A DNA stretch of 64,000 nt from Candidatus Avelusimicrobium intestinale (GCA_902765225.1 CACWYV010000004.1:124001-188000); one strand, 5' to 3'. Positions 1 through 6,087 are shown, counted from the first letter of the stretch. Translations and numbers: made by a program. The notes: a model not told the origin generated them from the letters alone.

Positions 1-1565
1 ATTTCTGTGCCGGACCATATGATAACGGGGGAACAGATAATCAATCAATTTGTACGGCATTGGCGGCAGGAGTTATTTGGGTTATTTACCAATGAGCAAT
101 TGGACGTTGTAGAGAAAGCATTTATCAGTACGGATAAACAGTTCTTTGAAGTAGAAGGGAAAAAGGTTACGTACATACCGGGCGAAAAGTGGAATTACGA
201 AGAACAATTTGGGATAGAACTGCGTGCGATATTGGAAGAAAGGGGATTATCGCTCACAGAGCGGCAGTGGAAACATATTTTTGGTGGCAAAGGGCCAATT
301 TTTGCGCCGTTGGCTATTCCCTTAAAAATGTTGTCCACGGAGTGTTACAAAGCCGCTTATGGGAAGATTCCCTCGCAAAAATCGACTGATGGGGTGGTTA
401 AATCCTTGGGTAGGTGGAATGCGAAGTTGAAGGAAAATAGACGAGAAACCAATGACCCGTTTCTGTTGGGTTACATTCATTTTTTAGATGATAACAGAGA
501 GAAGATACGCCATAATCCGCAAGAGAACTTGGCAAAACTACAAGCGTTTTTAGAAGAAGGTGGGGAACTTTCTTCCAATCGCGCTGCTTCAAATAATAGG
601 TTTTATTCTGTATACCAACATTATCAAGAAAGGCTGAAAGCAGGTACCTACACTGATCAAGAGAAAGAAGCCGCCCAAGCCTTTGTGGAATTGTTTGAGA
701 AAAACTGGGAGCGGCAATTACATACTCCGCAAGAGAACTTGGCCGATTTAAAAGCATTTTTAGAAGAAGGCGGAGAACTTTCTACCAATCGTTCTACTCC
801 GGGATATCGGTTTTATCCCATATACCGACGTTACAAAAAAGGATTTGAAGCAAGTATCTATACCGAACAAACAAAAAAGGACGTTCAATCCTTTTTAGAA
901 TTGTTTGAAGGAAACTGGGACCGTCAAATACAACAATATACGCCGCAAGAGAACTTGGCCGATTTAAAAGCATTTTTAGACAAAGATGGAAAACTTTCTT
1001 CCAATCGCTCTACTCCAAATGATAGGTTTTATCCCGTATACCGACGTTACCAAAAAGGATTGGAAGCAGGTACCTACACCGGACAAGAAAAAGAAACCGT
1101 TCAAGCATTTGTAAAATTATTTGAGGAAAACTGGGACCGTCAGATACTACATACTCCGTCAGAGAAGAAGGCGGAGAACTTTCTTCCAGTTCGGCTGCTC
1201 CGGGTTACAGGTTTTACAATGCATATCGGAATTATCAAAAAGGACTGGAAAGAGGTATCTATACCGAACAAACAAAAGAAACCGTCCAAGCCTTTGTAGA
1301 ATTGTTTGAGAAAAACTGGGAGCGGCAATTACATATTTCGCCGGAGAACTTGGCCGACTTAAAAGCGTTTTTAGACGAAGGCGGAGAACTTTCTACCAAC
1401 CGTTCTACTCCGGGATATCGGTTTTATCCTATATACCAACGTTATAAAAAAGGGTTGGAAGCAGGCATCTATGCCGCAGAGGAAAAAAGGGCCGCCCAAG
1501 CCTTTGTGGAATTGTTTGAGGAAAACTGGCAGACCAAGATAAATAACGGGCGAAAAGACAAATGA
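1..1565 (+). pseudogene. Secreted ~70-aa-repeat protein, paralogue 1 (5'-truncated by window, frameshifted)
   Basis: The reading frame is open from base 1 and reads ISVPDHMITG, matching the middle of the two downstream paralogues, so the true start and signal peptide lie before the window. A globular region follows, then C-terminal units beginning (T/N)PQENLA and ending near ELFE-NWERQ. Three intact units run in frame 1 (about 514-1150). In the fourth unit the sequence jumps from ACTCCG to GAAGAAGGCGG; compared with its neighbour units about 28 net bases are missing, which shifts frame. Frame 1 then stops at 1299 after a nonsense tail, while repeat-like sequence (rest of unit 4 and a full unit 5) continues in frame 3 to the stop at 1563-1565. 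This could be a decayed copy, a slippage (phase-variation) state, or an assembly error. Function unknown; I recognise no named family. Confidence 0.7.
514..1530 (+). repeat. Coding tandem repeats, five ~70-aa units (fourth truncated)
   Basis: Each unit of roughly 210 nt follows the pattern TPQENLADLKAFLEEGG-L-S-N, then RFY--Y--Y--GLEAG-Y, then a helix ending VELFE-NW-RQ. Units 2 and 5 are very alike at the DNA level, which favours recombination or slippage. Unit 4 lacks about 28 nt at its start. Confidence 0.85.
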
Positions 1566-3091
1566 CGAATATGAAGAAACTATCTATTGTTTTAGCGGTG
1601 TTCTGTATCGGCTTATTCACGCATGTGCAGGCACAGGTGCCGGCCGAAATCGTGGCGCGGACGGTAGATTTGCTGGTGAAAAACGGAGCTAAAGCTACCC
1701 CGCAATTAAGATACGCCGTTAGTCATTATTATGCAAAAACAATCCGCAAATCAGGCCCTCTTCCGGCGAACGCAGAAGACTCTTTTATTATAGAACATGT
1801 CCAAAAGTTTATATCGGCAAGTCCCCGTTTATTTACAACCAAAGAACTGAAACAGTTGCAACAACAATTGACGAATGAACTAAAACGCACGGTTCCCAAG
1901 CAACCAAAAAAGCAAACCGTTGGGACTGCGTTGGAACGGGCCGCGCTGGAAGCAACGGTGGGGGAAGAACTAACGATTTCGGTGCCGGACCATATGATAA
2001 CAGGGCTAAAAGCGTTGCAATACGCTGCGCCAAATTGGCGGGAAGAATTGTTTGGTATATTTAACGAAGAAGATTTGACCATTATCCGCACGGCATTAGA
2101 GAATACGGATGAACACTTTTTTGAAATCAAAGATAATCATGTTATTTTTAAACAGGGAGAGGAGTGGAACTATGAAGAGCAATTTGGGATAGAATTGCGT
2201 GCTATCCTGGCAGAGCGGCAAATATCGTTCACAGACCGGCAGTGGAAACATATTTGGGGCGGTTCGGGAATAAAACTTGCGCCGCTTTCTATCCCGTTTA
2301 AATTAGTATCTACGGAATGTTATCTGGCGATCTATGAAAAGATTCCGTCGGGAAAAGGTCCTGAACCGGTGGTAAAATCTTTGGCCAAATGGAACGGAAG
2401 ATTCAAGCAAAGCATGCAAAATTCATCCAACCCTTTCGTTCGGAGTGTCGTTGCTTTTTTAAATGACAATACACGAATTCAAAAACCGCCGCAAGAATGG
2501 TTGAAATCTCTTAGCGAGTTGATAGAAAAGGGAGGCAAAGTGTCTTTAACTACTTCCAATCCCTTCTATATGAAATATAAGAATTTTCAAAGATCGTTGG
2601 CCCAAGTTGATTATCCGCCGCAAGAGAAAGCCATCATCTTACAATATATGAGATTGGTGGAACAAAATGCAGACAAAAAATTTAAAACTCCGCGACAATG
2701 GCTCCAAGAACTTCAAAACTTTTTGGATAAAGGGGGGGACTTATCCACCAACGATAAAAACCCAAGTGTTCGTTTTTACAACAAATACCAGCACTACCTC
2801 ACTAATGAATATACTTATACGCCGGAAGATCAATCAATTATTCAAGAATATCTGCAAACGTTTGAAACCAGCTGGAAGCGAAAAATCAGAAAACCAAAAG
2901 AGTGGTTAACCGATTTGCAAGATTTTCTGGCACAAGGAGGCCGGATATCTTCCAACTCTTCCGGGTTGTGTTATATGTTCTATGTCCGGTATTATCATTA
3001 TAAAACCGTCACCTATGACTATACTTCCGAAGAGCAAGAAATAATCCGACAATACATAGAATTATTTGAGAAAAACTGGGAGCGAAAATAA
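1562..3091 (+). CDS. Secreted ~70-aa-repeat protein, paralogue 2
   Basis: Hypothetical exported protein of 509 aa. The start ATG overlaps the stop of the upstream copy (ATGA), implying translational coupling; an alternative ATG three codons later gives the tidy signal peptide MKKLSIVLAVFCIGLFTHVQA, cleaved before QVPAE. Residues about 25-135 form a helical N-terminal region, about 137-305 a conserved globular region (landmarks VPDHMITG, GEEWNYEEQFG, RQWKHIWGG), and about 309-509 hold three diverged repeat units (starts PPQEWL, TPRQWL, KPKEWL). The layout is shared with the genes on both sides. No catalytic motif, anchor or known domain is visible. A periplasmic or extracellular role is inferred from the signal peptide only. 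Confidence 0.85.
   Translation: MTNMKKLSIVLAVFCIGLFTHVQAQVPAEIVARTVDLLVKNGAKATPQLRYAVSHYYAKTIRKSGPLPANAEDSFIIEHVQKFISASPRLFTTKELKQLQQQLTNELKRTVPKQPKKQTVGTALERAALEATVGEELTISVPDHMITGLKALQYAAPNWREELFGIFNEEDLTIIRTALENTDEHFFEIKDNHVIFKQGEEWNYEEQFGIELRAILAERQISFTDRQWKHIWGGSGIKLAPLSIPFKLVSTECYLAIYEKIPSGKGPEPVVKSLAKWNGRFKQSMQNSSNPFVRSVVAFLNDNTRIQKPPQEWLKSLSELIEKGGKVSLTTSNPFYMKYKNFQRSLAQVDYPPQEKAIILQYMRLVEQNADKKFKTPRQWLQELQNFLDKGGDLSTNDKNPSVRFYNKYQHYLTNEYTYTPEDQSIIQEYLQTFETSWKRKIRKPKEWLTDLQDFLAQGGRISSNSSGLCYMFYVRYYHYKTVTYDYTSEEQEIIRQYIELFEKNWERK
2486..3088 (+). repeat. Coding tandem repeats, three diverged ~66-70-aa units
   Basis: Three C-terminal units with the spine (P)xxWLxxLxxFLxxGGxxS, FYxxYxxY and a closing LFExxWxRK helix. 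They are more diverged from one another than the units of the upstream copy. Confidence 0.8.
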
Positions 3092-3097
3092 ATTATT

Positions 3098-5302
3098 ATG
3101 ATTAAAAGAGTGTTTATTATAGTGACCGTATCTTGTATCGGTTTGTTTTCATCTATATGGGCCCAAGTCCCGGCGGAAGCGGTTAGGATGACGGTACAGG
3201 TGCTCGTAGAAGGTGGGGCAAAAGCCACCCCGCAATTAACCCAGGCTGTTACTCGTTATTATGCTCAATTGGGACGGCAATTCGGCACGAATCAATCCGT
3301 CGTAGACAATGCCTTTATTCTAACGCACGCCCAAAAATTTGTAGCGGCCAATCACGATTTGTTTTCCTCCATCGTAACCAAACAGTTGCGGCAACATCTG
3401 CAGAAACAATTAGCGGAAGACGTAAACAATGTACTCCCCAAGCATCAAGAGGCTTCCTCCTTACAAACTGCTTTGGAACAAGCCTCTCGTCAAGTTACTA
3501 ACGGGGAAAATTTAATCATTTCCATACCGGATGACATGTTGACGGGGGTAGAAGCCCTAAAAATGTCCGCCCCGAACTGGCGGGCGCAGTTGTTTGTGCG
3601 ATTTTCCAGGGAAGAATTAGATCTACTTGAATTAGCCTTACAGAACACGGACGATTACTTTTTTGAAATCAAAGACGGAAAAGCTGTTTTTAAACCGGGG
3701 GAAGAATGGAATTATGAGGAACGATTTGGACGGGAATTGCATTGGCTCTTACAAGAACGCGATATCATGTTTACGGACTTGCAGTGGAAATACATCTGGG
3801 GCGGCAACGGGAGTATCAATGCACCGCTATCTTTTCCGTTAAAAGTGCTTTCCAATGAATGTTATGTGGCCGTTCACGGAAAAGTGCCCTCTCAAAGGGC
3901 CACTGAGCCGGAAAAAAAATCGTTGGCTTCCTGGAATAATCGATTTAGAAGTCGCAAAAAAGAATCGCAGGCTCCTTTCGTACGGAGTGTCATGGAATTT
4001 TTGGATAGATATACGATGCCGCGGAAAACGCCGCAAGAAAATTTGGCTCTATTGAAAGACTTCCTGGAAACAGGCAACTCTCTTTCCTCCTATCGGTCAT
4101 CTCCTAGCTTTCACCTCTATTTGGTATACAAAAATTATGTAGCCAACGTTGAAAAAACCATCTATACTGGGGAAGCCTTGGAAGCTGCCCGGGAGTACGT
4201 GCGCCTGTTTAAGGAAAACAGTACCTTGCAGGAGCAGAAAACGCCGCAAGAAAATTTGGCAGAACTGCAACAGTGTTTAGCGCAAGAGGGCAAACCTTCT
4301 GCCAAGCGTGATTCCGATCTCAAACGCCACTACTACACATACAAATACTACAGAACTAAACTGAAAAAAGGTTTATATACCGGGGATGCCCAAAAAGTTG
4401 TGCAACAATATGTGCAGTTATTTGAAGATAATTGGGACCGGCATCTACAGCGCACTCCACAAGAGAATTTAGCGCTATTGCAAGAATTCCTGGAAACAGG
4501 CGAATCCGTTTCTGCCGCCAATGATTCCAAACAAGCACCTTGGTTGCACAGGTCCTACAAACGCTATGAGACGGGACTTAAAACGGGTGCCTATACGGGA
4601 GAAGCAGAAAAGGCTGCGCGGGCATTTGTAGAACTGTATGAAGGAAATTGGAACCGGACACGTAAAACACCGTCCCAAAACTTGGCAGAATTAGAACAAT
4701 TTTTAGCACAAGGAGGGAAACTGTCTGGCAATACTTCTTCCCCGGCCCACCGGTTCTATGCGATAATGCAGAATTACATAACCGGATTGGAAGCCGGTAT
4801 CTATAAAAAACCCCAAGAAGAAACTGTTAAAAAATATATTCAAGTATTTAAAGCAAATTGGAAATACGCCTATAACACTCCACAAGAAAATGTAGATGAA
4901 TTAAACCAATTTTTAAGTGAAGGGGGAACAATTGTTCCCAGTCCCGCTGCACCAAGTAGGCGGCTTTACAATATCTACCAGCGTTATAAAGCCCGGTTAA
5001 AGAAAGGTATTGAAAAGGATCCGCAAGCAGTGGCCGCTATGCGGGAATTCATAAGCATACTTGAAGCAAATATATCCCGAAGCATACAACGAATTCCTTC
5101 TGAGAACTTGGTAGAATTGGAAAAATATCTTGCCGCAGGCGGGAAACTTTCTGCCAGTTATTCGGCTCCGGGCTCTCGTTTTTACCATATCCGTAATCGT
5201 TATAAAATCAACCTGGGAAAAGGAATCTATACAGGCAAAGAGACCGAAGCCGCCCGACGTTTTGTGGAACTGTTTGATAAACATTGGGTAAAAAACAAGT
5301 AA
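3098..5302 (+). CDS. Secreted ~70-aa-repeat protein, paralogue 3
   Basis: Largest member of the tandem family, 734 aa, starting 6 nt after paralogue 2. Signal peptide about 1-22 (MIKRVFIIVTVSCIGLFSSIWA, cut before QVPAE). The N-terminal region keeps the family phrase GGAKATPQL; the globular region (about 145-305) keeps SIPDDMLTG, GEEWNYEERFG and LQWKYIWGG. Six repeat units fill about 311-734, each starting (T/I)P(Q/S)(E/Q)N and ending with an aromatic-rich helix. The unit number differs between the three genes (five, three, six), so expansion and contraction seem active. The stop lies 2 nt from the convergent kinase gene's stop. Function unknown; the regular alpha-helical units suggest a solenoid or elongated surface scaffold (inference). 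Confidence 0.87.
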   Translation: MIKRVFIIVTVSCIGLFSSIWAQVPAEAVRMTVQVLVEGGAKATPQLTQAVTRYYAQLGRQFGTNQSVVDNAFILTHAQKFVAANHDLFSSIVTKQLRQHLQKQLAEDVNNVLPKHQEASSLQTALEQASRQVTNGENLIISIPDDMLTGVEALKMSAPNWRAQLFVRFSREELDLLELALQNTDDYFFEIKDGKAVFKPGEEWNYEERFGRELHWLLQERDIMFTDLQWKYIWGGNGSINAPLSFPLKVLSNECYVAVHGKVPSQRATEPEKKSLASWNNRFRSRKKESQAPFVRSVMEFLDRYTMPRKTPQENLALLKDFLETGNSLSSYRSSPSFHLYLVYKNYVANVEKTIYTGEALEAAREYVRLFKENSTLQEQKTPQENLAELQQCLAQEGKPSAKRDSDLKRHYYTYKYYRTKLKKGLYTGDAQKVVQQYVQLFEDNWDRHLQRTPQENLALLQEFLETGESVSAANDSKQAPWLHRSYKRYETGLKTGAYTGEAEKAARAFVELYEGNWNRTRKTPSQNLAELEQFLAQGGKLSGNTSSPAHRFYAIMQNYITGLEAGIYKKPQEETVKKYIQVFKANWKYAYNTPQENVDELNQFLSEGGTIVPSPAAPSRRLYNIYQRYKARLKKGIEKDPQAVAAMREFISILEANISRSIQRIPSENLVELEKYLAAGGKLSASYSAPGSRFYHIRNRYKINLGKGIYTGKETEAARRFVELFDKHWVKNK
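4028..5299 (+). repeat. Coding tandem repeats, six ~70-aa units
   Basis: Six consecutive units starting with TPQENLALL, TPQENLAEL, TPQENLALL, TPSQNLAEL, TPQENVDEL and IPSENLVEL. Units differ at many positions, so this array is older than the near-identical units of paralogue 1. Confidence 0.85.
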
Positions 5303-5304
5303 AG

Positions 5305-6087
5305 TTATTTCATACGGCCGGACGTCCAAAACCGGGCTCCCGGTAATTTCTTTAATAGCCGTTTGAGCCGGCTGTAGACATTGCGCCACCCGCGTAGCTG
5401 CCCAACTTGCCGCCATAACTGTGGAGAGGCCTGGTGAGAAAACTCCTGATAATAAGATACGAACCGCTTCATTTCCCGTTTATCGGGAAAGGGTTGCATT
5501 AAATTAATCCGGCGTAAAAAACCGCGTATCGGTTTTTTACGGAAGATAAACCGGTTGATGTCAATAAGTGTAAAACGGTATTGTCCGTTTTCCTGTGTGT
5601 ACAAAACGTTGTTTAGGATGTAATCCCGGTGCATAAGGCCGTGTGCGTGTAAATCCGCCGTGAAACGGGCGAACGCCCTTACTAATTTATCATCTTTTTT
5701 ATCCTGCGCCACCGTGCGCACCGGTTCAATAAATTCTCCTACCGAAAAGGATTCATAAATCTGTCCGTTTTTCCGTACCAGCACATACCCATACTGACGC
5801 GGTGTGTAGAAACCGCGTTCTAAAATCATTTGTGAATTCTTATACGTACGTTCGGCTTTGGGTGTGCGTAAACCCCACGAATACAAAAGCCTATTTAAGC
5901 GGGGAGGAATGCCGTATTTTTTTACACATACAGTCTGTCCGTTTACTTGGAAGATCTTAATTTCATTACGGCCCTTATAAATTGTTTTACCTTCACAGGG
6001 AAAATATTCGGGTAATTGTTCTAAAAAACCGCTAGGTAGGGGGGAAGTAGGCGCTTCTACAACTTTACAGCAAATTTTTGTCTTCAT
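5305..6087 (-). CDS. Kdo/WaaP-like lipopolysaccharide kinase family protein
   Basis: 260-aa protein-kinase-fold small-molecule kinase. Visible motifs: the ATP-binding lysine region VCVKKY (about 54-59), the catalytic loop HRDYILNNVLY with H153, D155 and N160, and the metal-binding IDIN with D176. This pattern matches the WaaP/InaA/KdkA lipopolysaccharide-kinase clan, which phosphorylates heptose or Kdo in the inner core of LPS from the cytoplasmic side of the inner membrane. Exact substrate cannot be read from sequence. It is alone on its strand, convergent with the repeat-protein cluster and divergent from the LexA-like gene, sharing a 170-nt intergenic region. Confidence 0.78.
   Translation of the reverse strand: MKTKICCKVVEAPTSPLPSGFLEQLPEYFPCEGKTIYKGRNEIKIFQVNGQTVCVKKYGIPPRLNRLLYSWGLRTPKAERTYKNSQMILERGFYTPRQYGYVLVRKNGQIYESFSVGEFIEPVRTVAQDKKDDKLVRAFARFTADLHAHGLMHRDYILNNVLYTQENGQYRFTLIDINRFIFRKKPIRGFLRRINLMQPFPDKREMKRFVSYYQEFSHQASPQLWRQVGQLRGWRNVYSRLKRLLKKLPGARFWTSGRMK

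Follow-up and report, generated by a model that had tools for sequence, protein, structure and literature searches.

Members of the Elusimicrobiaceae occur in animal guts; to our knowledge, their interactions are largely uncharacterised and the phylum Elusimicrobiota is little-known. Among described repeats, HA (PF03457; solved example 2kta) forms tandem units of ~60 aa, with helix 1, a Gly/Pro turn, and two helices, and HA itself binds nucleic acids. PMBR (PF09373), found in PeiP and PeiW of methanogen viruses, is a tandem helix-(G/N)RxP unit, and the Homing endonuclease associated repeat (PF18780, HNH_repeat) has a similar GRxP-type motif. PMBR units are 30-35 aa long, and binding requires at least three repeats (PMC2989375). 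At the level of the whole gene, the described polymorphic toxin systems are exported and modular, with conserved leader regions, an exchangeable C-terminal domain, and tandem paralogues (PMC3482391).

The window analyzed here (the whole stretch of 64,000 nucleotides, G000:C4:124001-188000, of Candidatus Avelusimicrobium intestinale, whose genus is placed among the Elusimicrobiaceae) holds part of a putatively exported, modular Elusimicrobiaceae family. Its core and its C-terminal domain (CTD) match no Pfam family, and the nearest relatives of its repeat are found in helicases and in archaeal wall binding. In our view the family is novel in being exported, in having a core and a CTD that could not be placed, and in being restricted to one lineage as far as searched, and its genes are concrete, testable candidates for how Elusimicrobiaceae contact their surroundings.

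The host genome (1.41 Mb in 7 contigs, 98.9% complete) carries four paralogues in tandem on the same strand (gene0 to gene3). The window contains the 3′ part of gene1, gene2, and gene3, all on the plus strand. An earlier note on this DNA had described a tandem three-gene family at positions 1-5302: the three adjacent same-strand paralogues are present, and tandem duplication is supported, but a fourth copy lies upstream (gene0, L003:10163-12643, ~357-2837 bases before the window start) and gene1 is broken. Only gene2 (1562-3091, 509 aa) and gene3 (3098-5302, 734 aa) are intact open reading frames. In gene0, the core comes with three typical units, one unit linked to the CTD, and, at the C-terminus, an additional domain of ~230 aa, the CTD itself. 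Gene1 (1-1565 in the window, start upstream at L003:12646) is pseudogene-like and retains a core and five units. Its N-terminus reads M..FSAAPVQAG..VTDY and then goes out of frame (L003 ~12812) a little past the signal peptide; the core and first units are open at 1-1158, a second frameshift falls at ~1165, and unit 5 is read in a different frame at 1302-1565. Gene0 has an in-frame TAA close to its start, at the same N-terminal spot where the gene1 frame breaks, and since an ATG follows directly in the same frame, re-initiation yielding a product without signal peptide is conceivable. At this spot, gene0 and gene1, which show 5 nt of difference, have ~20 codons fewer than gene2 and gene3; the stop in gene0 and the frame lesions in gene1 may also be assembly errors. 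Stretches of 99 nt that are identical in gene0 and gene1 point to a recent duplication or exchange.

Signal peptides were assigned from the hydropathy of the h-region together with sequence reading. Every complete family member presents one (h-region hydropathy 2.1-3.2), and those of gene2 (MTNMKKLSIVLAVFCIGLFTHVQA-Q, 1562-1633, hydropathy 2.89) and gene3 (MIKRVFIIVTVSCIGLFSSIWA-Q, 3098-3163) end in a cleavage site of the AxA-Q type. This supports a family of exported (Sec) proteins, from which we infer their final location. The signal peptide that had been described as shared by the three genes is, within the window, limited to gene2 and gene3, with the start of gene1 lying outside. Hydropathy revealed no further segment of strong hydrophobicity in the window genes, and neither a surface anchor nor a sorting signal or autotransporter domain was seen. 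In gene2, a basic (pI 10) N-terminal helical module spans 1637-1960, according to the AlphaFold2 (AF2) model and charge computation, and recurs weakly in a second exported protein encoded by this genome (L029/L037). In L037:6816-8054 (G000:C3), an exported protein of 412 aa, this module (E 4e-4) is combined with a different C-terminal region.

The conserved globular region, or core, was correctly recognized: the motifs VPDHMITG, EEWNYEE-FG, and QWK-IWGG are present in gene1, gene2, and gene3. HMM searches placed it at 1-375 in gene1 (E 6e-56), 1961-2350 in gene2, and 3503-3892 in gene3. The gene2 core is mostly helical with one beta hairpin in the AF2 model, and the cores of the window cluster are acidic (computed pI 4.6-5.4). 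No Pfam or NCBIfam model scored above its cut-off on the core, and a profile search against PDB gave nothing significant; the best match there, a Mur ligase (E 0.09), was discarded. That the globular region belongs to no known family thus agrees with the Pfam, NCBIfam, and PDB sequence searches. Three exported proteins of 640-652 aa (L068, L069, and L070, from G024, G065, and G002) have a distant core and no repeats, and they may form a branch of their own within the family.

Manual and HMM parsing identified three, five, three, and six typical units in gene0, gene1, gene2, and gene3, respectively, the count of gene1 being the sum over two frames; the numbers five, three, and six first reported for genes 1-3 are therefore right. 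Typical units are ~65-71 aa long, with one of only 63 aa in gene0. In gene1, units 1-3 lie at 514-723, 724-939, and 940-1149, followed at 1150-1547 by unit 4, which is frameshifted and has helix 1 partly deleted, and by unit 5 in the second frame. Gene2 has units 1-3, of three helices each, at 2489-2689, 2690-2893, and 2894-3088, and gene3 has units 1-6 at 4031-4243, 4244-4456, 4457-4666, 4667-4879, 4880-5092, and 5093-5299. A degenerate unit 0, detected with an iterated profile, joins core to array: it is located at 2300-2488 in gene2 (aa 247-309, three helices in the AF2 model) and at 3845-4027 in gene3 (aa 250-310). The periodicity is clear in both intact genes: gene3 presented 62 identities at a lag of 71 aa (shuffle maximum 43, 1000 shuffles) and gene2 presented 42 at a lag of 68 aa (shuffle maximum 21).

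Across the genus and one sister genus, the iterated profile retrieved 117 units of 57-90 aa in 23 proteins, from 1 to 17 per protein, and all 12 measured arrays are basic (pI 8.2-9.95). Units are more similar within a protein (33%) than between proteins (20%), and for 68 of 112 units the nearest unit lies within the same protein (5.9 expected), which argues for concerted turnover of units. Unit counts differ between genes and between species, as the suggestion of a changing repeat number implied. The diversifying selection proposed together with it is not supported: pairwise dN/dS is 0.15-0.41 for the core, with near-saturated dS in comparisons with gene2 and gene3, its median between units is 0.39, gene2 and gene3 together give 0.18 at near-saturated dS, and two of the four copies are decaying. 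With dN/dS of ~0.4 or below, constraint dominates over diversification.

We tentatively favor the reading that gene2 and gene3 (and the decayed gene0 and gene1) encode exported modular scaffolds for multivalent binding to an anionic polymer as candidate ligand. The signal peptide, legible in the sequence, would be cleaved as the protein is exported from the cytoplasm, its destination beyond that being our deduction. After the acidic helical core, the basic trihelical array is predicted to form an extended chain, which would grip the anionic polymer –envelope/cell-wall polymer, mucus glycan, or nucleic acid– multivalently outside the cytoplasm. The CTD, which some family members carry behind the array or in an adjacent gene, would probably do the active work, with the array holding it in position. 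Genes would duplicate in tandem and units would recombine, altering copy and unit number, and surplus copies would decay; such a turnover of copies through recombination and decay is our best reading of the cluster. In favor of these scaffolds count the signal peptides of complete members, the plan of core and units common to relatives, the trihelical units of the AF2 model, the basic arrays beside acidic cores, the helicase-type fold matches and the PMBR match of the family profile (both below), the likeness of units within a protein, the 99-nt identities, the fused or separate CTD, and the core dN/dS. Several points weigh against them. No HMM scores over its curated cut-off; the basic charge would suit binding to proteins or membranes just as well; an anchor was not found, leaving surface retention putative; and the CTD model is only partly confident.

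The AF2 model of gene2, built with six related rows, reached a pLDDT of 73 and a pTM of 0.40. From the N-terminus onward, it shows a helical module, a core that is mostly helical and includes one hairpin, and trihelical units; in the array, the units are separate, have three helices each, and show mostly pLDDT 70-93. These separate helical units fit the elongated scaffold of the earlier note, but the adhesin role tied to it stands only as a rival reading. According to this rival, the proteins are surface adhesins or protein scaffolds whose alpha-solenoid-like units bind a specific protein partner (from the host, a protist, or a neighboring bacterium), with repeat number setting the reach. The chain of helical units and the variable repeat number speak for it, as do the HEAT/ARM, importin-type, and 14-3-3 segments found in a second look at solved structures with VIA (Z 5-6). 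However, the tool's own note gives Z 5-6 as chance level for helical proteins, an anchor, sorting signal, or autotransporter domain was not observed, and pairwise dN/dS displays no sign of positive selection, so we regard a protein-binding adhesin as possible but doubtful. Searching the gene2 model against PDB, Foldseek found nothing under E 0.4 and VIA gave Z of at most 6.3, which the tool rates as ordinary for helical proteins, without 2kta among its rows; both barely covered the core. In the PDB profile search, the repeat matched ‘E8’ (8fje, a repetitive 145-aa chain) and ribosomal S18 through short helices only, and neither was retained. The same goes for ASXH, Spectrin_5, CudC, and TipAS, each a single short helical match that is not credible. 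Whole-protein scans with Pfam, NCBIfam, PHROGs, and PADLOC gave nothing credible.

The CTD (~230 aa) contains invariant R, H, and E residues in IRMGxHE...HLHIE (conserved R, HE, and HxHxE). It is fused onto core and repeats in gene0 (G000) and in G031, G017, and G011, the G017 copy being broken, and it is encoded by a separate neighboring gene in G022, G004, and G074; in the first two of these, that gene has a signal peptide of its own. This pattern of fusion and fission suggests that core plus array and CTD work together. We found no Pfam or PDB sequence family match for the CTD and no recognized toxin or enzyme family. In an 812-aa relative, the CTD region retrieved mostly the complex I 30-kDa subunit (VIA) and small alarmone synthetases (Foldseek); with E 0.5 and Z 5.2 at best, on a partly confident model, both identities were rejected.

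The CTD is at the center of another rival, an export-linked effector in which a CTD enzyme hits neighbors or the host, core and repeats deliver and target it, and gene2 and gene3 are accessory or immunity-like. Like polymorphic toxin systems, the family is exported and modular, with conserved leader regions, an exchangeable C-terminal domain, and tandem paralogues, and this modular swapping favors an effector. Unlike in them, no known toxin domain was identified, and the three genes of the window consist of core and repeats only. The invariant R, H, and E also point to an effector, as does the occurrence of the CTD within giant proteins that include ART-like, MFS, and WaaP-kinase regions. Nevertheless, the CTD matched no recognized toxin or enzyme family, gene2 and gene3 lack it, and no immunity gene was identified: besides paralogues and a WaaP-type kinase, the genes seen nearby look ordinary. 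The ART-like label comes from visual inspection, and Pfam matched neither of two stand-alone relatives of the segment. We thus consider an effector unlikely.

The giant proteins were read from three ORFs of 1695-2558 aa cut by contig ends: L071 (G102:C19), L124 (G006:C164), and L125 (G076:C19). In them, the CTD is joined to MFS-transporter and/or WaaP-kinase regions and to FRGM...S segments, which look ART-like by eye. L071 also carries a core and 17 repeats, and in L071 and L125 WaaP-type kinase domains are fused behind the CTD. Two small exported proteins beside pnp in G031 (L030:119-925 and 1347-2099) contain FFRGM and FYRGM, match nothing in Pfam, and also appear ART-like by eye. In the window, a Kdo/WaaP-type kinase gene (5305-6087, minus strand; Pfam PF06293, E 2e-11) lies tail to tail with gene3, and in G031 a 59%-identical kinase gene lies ~1.9 kb from the gene with core, repeats, and CTD. 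That the kinase is part of the system is only suggested: among the loci read, it lies near family genes only in G000 and G031, and for this reason we did not count it as a component.

HMM searches, the check proposed by the earlier note, gave no strong match to a characterized family, and its claim that the repeat belongs to no known family stands in that no HMM exceeds a curated cut-off. It needs qualifying for the HA-helicase fold matches and a family-wide PMBR-like helix-(G/N)RxP. The six best fold matches in BFVD were five giant-virus SF2/DEAD helicases and one phage ‘Helicase associated domain’ protein. These matches are weak (E 0.009-0.22, probability up to 0.89), and the helicases are identified by name. 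That even the best E is 0.009, and that helical repeats match many things, also counts against the polymer-binding scaffold. They agree with the sequence comparison, in which HA matched weakly but in register, at best with 15 bits (cut-off 28.4), on the segment joining core and array. A profile-profile comparison with HA gave 7% (2/150 and 0/150 shuffles), which is suggestive only. In layout the family units are comparable to those of HA, standing in tandem and apparently built of helix 1, a Gly/Pro turn, and two helices. Extracellular nucleic-acid binding, where HA-like units would bind DNA or RNA in uptake, biofilm matrix, or competence, draws on these fold matches, the weak HA sequence match, and the basic arrays. 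It takes its ligand, however, from HA itself, and no family f1 member reached the HA cut-off in the phylum search of 248 genomes. The HA signature W...LGxWVxxQR...GFxW is present in genuine Elusimicrobiota HA units but absent from the window units, LGxWVxxQR included. The family also differs from HA proteins in being exported and in its score far under the cut-off, and none of the members scanned has a helicase domain. We find this function quite improbable.

PMBR recurs weakly in scans of long-unit relatives. When the family repeat profile was aligned with ten PMBR units from PeiP, PeiW, and PhiF3, hhalign gave 85%, with a score of 22.2 vs. a shuffle maximum of 12.2 (0/150 shuffles), falling to 62% without the giant protein L071. 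The PMBR model ranked family members in all six top positions over 786 ORFs, although across 66 genomes it stayed under its cut-off (best 18 bits vs. 24.9) and had no match in G000 at E<=1. The window cluster's own units reach 0.9% in hhalign and have lost the helix-(G/N)RxP motif, a further point against the reading we favor. The common part is one helix plus (G/N)RxP, and as it covers only ~21-24 columns, convergence is possible. Family arrays are mostly of 3-17 units and, at the level of the family profile, resemble PMBR in their tandem helix-(G/N)RxP, but their units of 57-90 aa have two more helices, and no catalytic endoisopeptidase domain was seen. HNH_repeat matched one unit without significance (E 0.12), and family proteins differ from its hosts in being exported and having no nuclease. 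HA and PMBR are the closest known units, and on the present tests the family cannot be assigned to either. There is only a slim chance that the arrays are polymer-binding proteins that share an ancestral helix-(G/N)RxP unit with PMBR and that some herbivore-gut Elusimicrobiaceae use them to bind or act upon the pseudomurein walls of methanogens living alongside them, the CTD being the active component.

Least probable of all is a decaying family without current function in this strain, its remaining copies also on their way out, which would match the gene0 stop, the double frameshift of gene1, the broken G017 CTD, and the patchy presence, but not gene2 and gene3, open over 509 and 734 codons with dN/dS of 0.18 at near-saturated dS.

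The family appears confined to Elusimicrobiaceae, as far as searched. The core profile was detected, patchily, in 15 of 66 genomes of the genus, and in 12 of 295 genomes of the phylum, representing 2 of 90 genera (its own and one sister genus). No family member was found in collections of viral contigs, phages, and plasmids. In a genome-contig collection, a single-protein scan gave nothing and an alignment scan retrieved three loci in two MAGs. Tandem groups of family genes were also observed in G022, G004, G074, G015, G011, and G036. The relatives follow a common plan: a signal peptide, an acidic core, and a basic array of 1-17 trihelical units.
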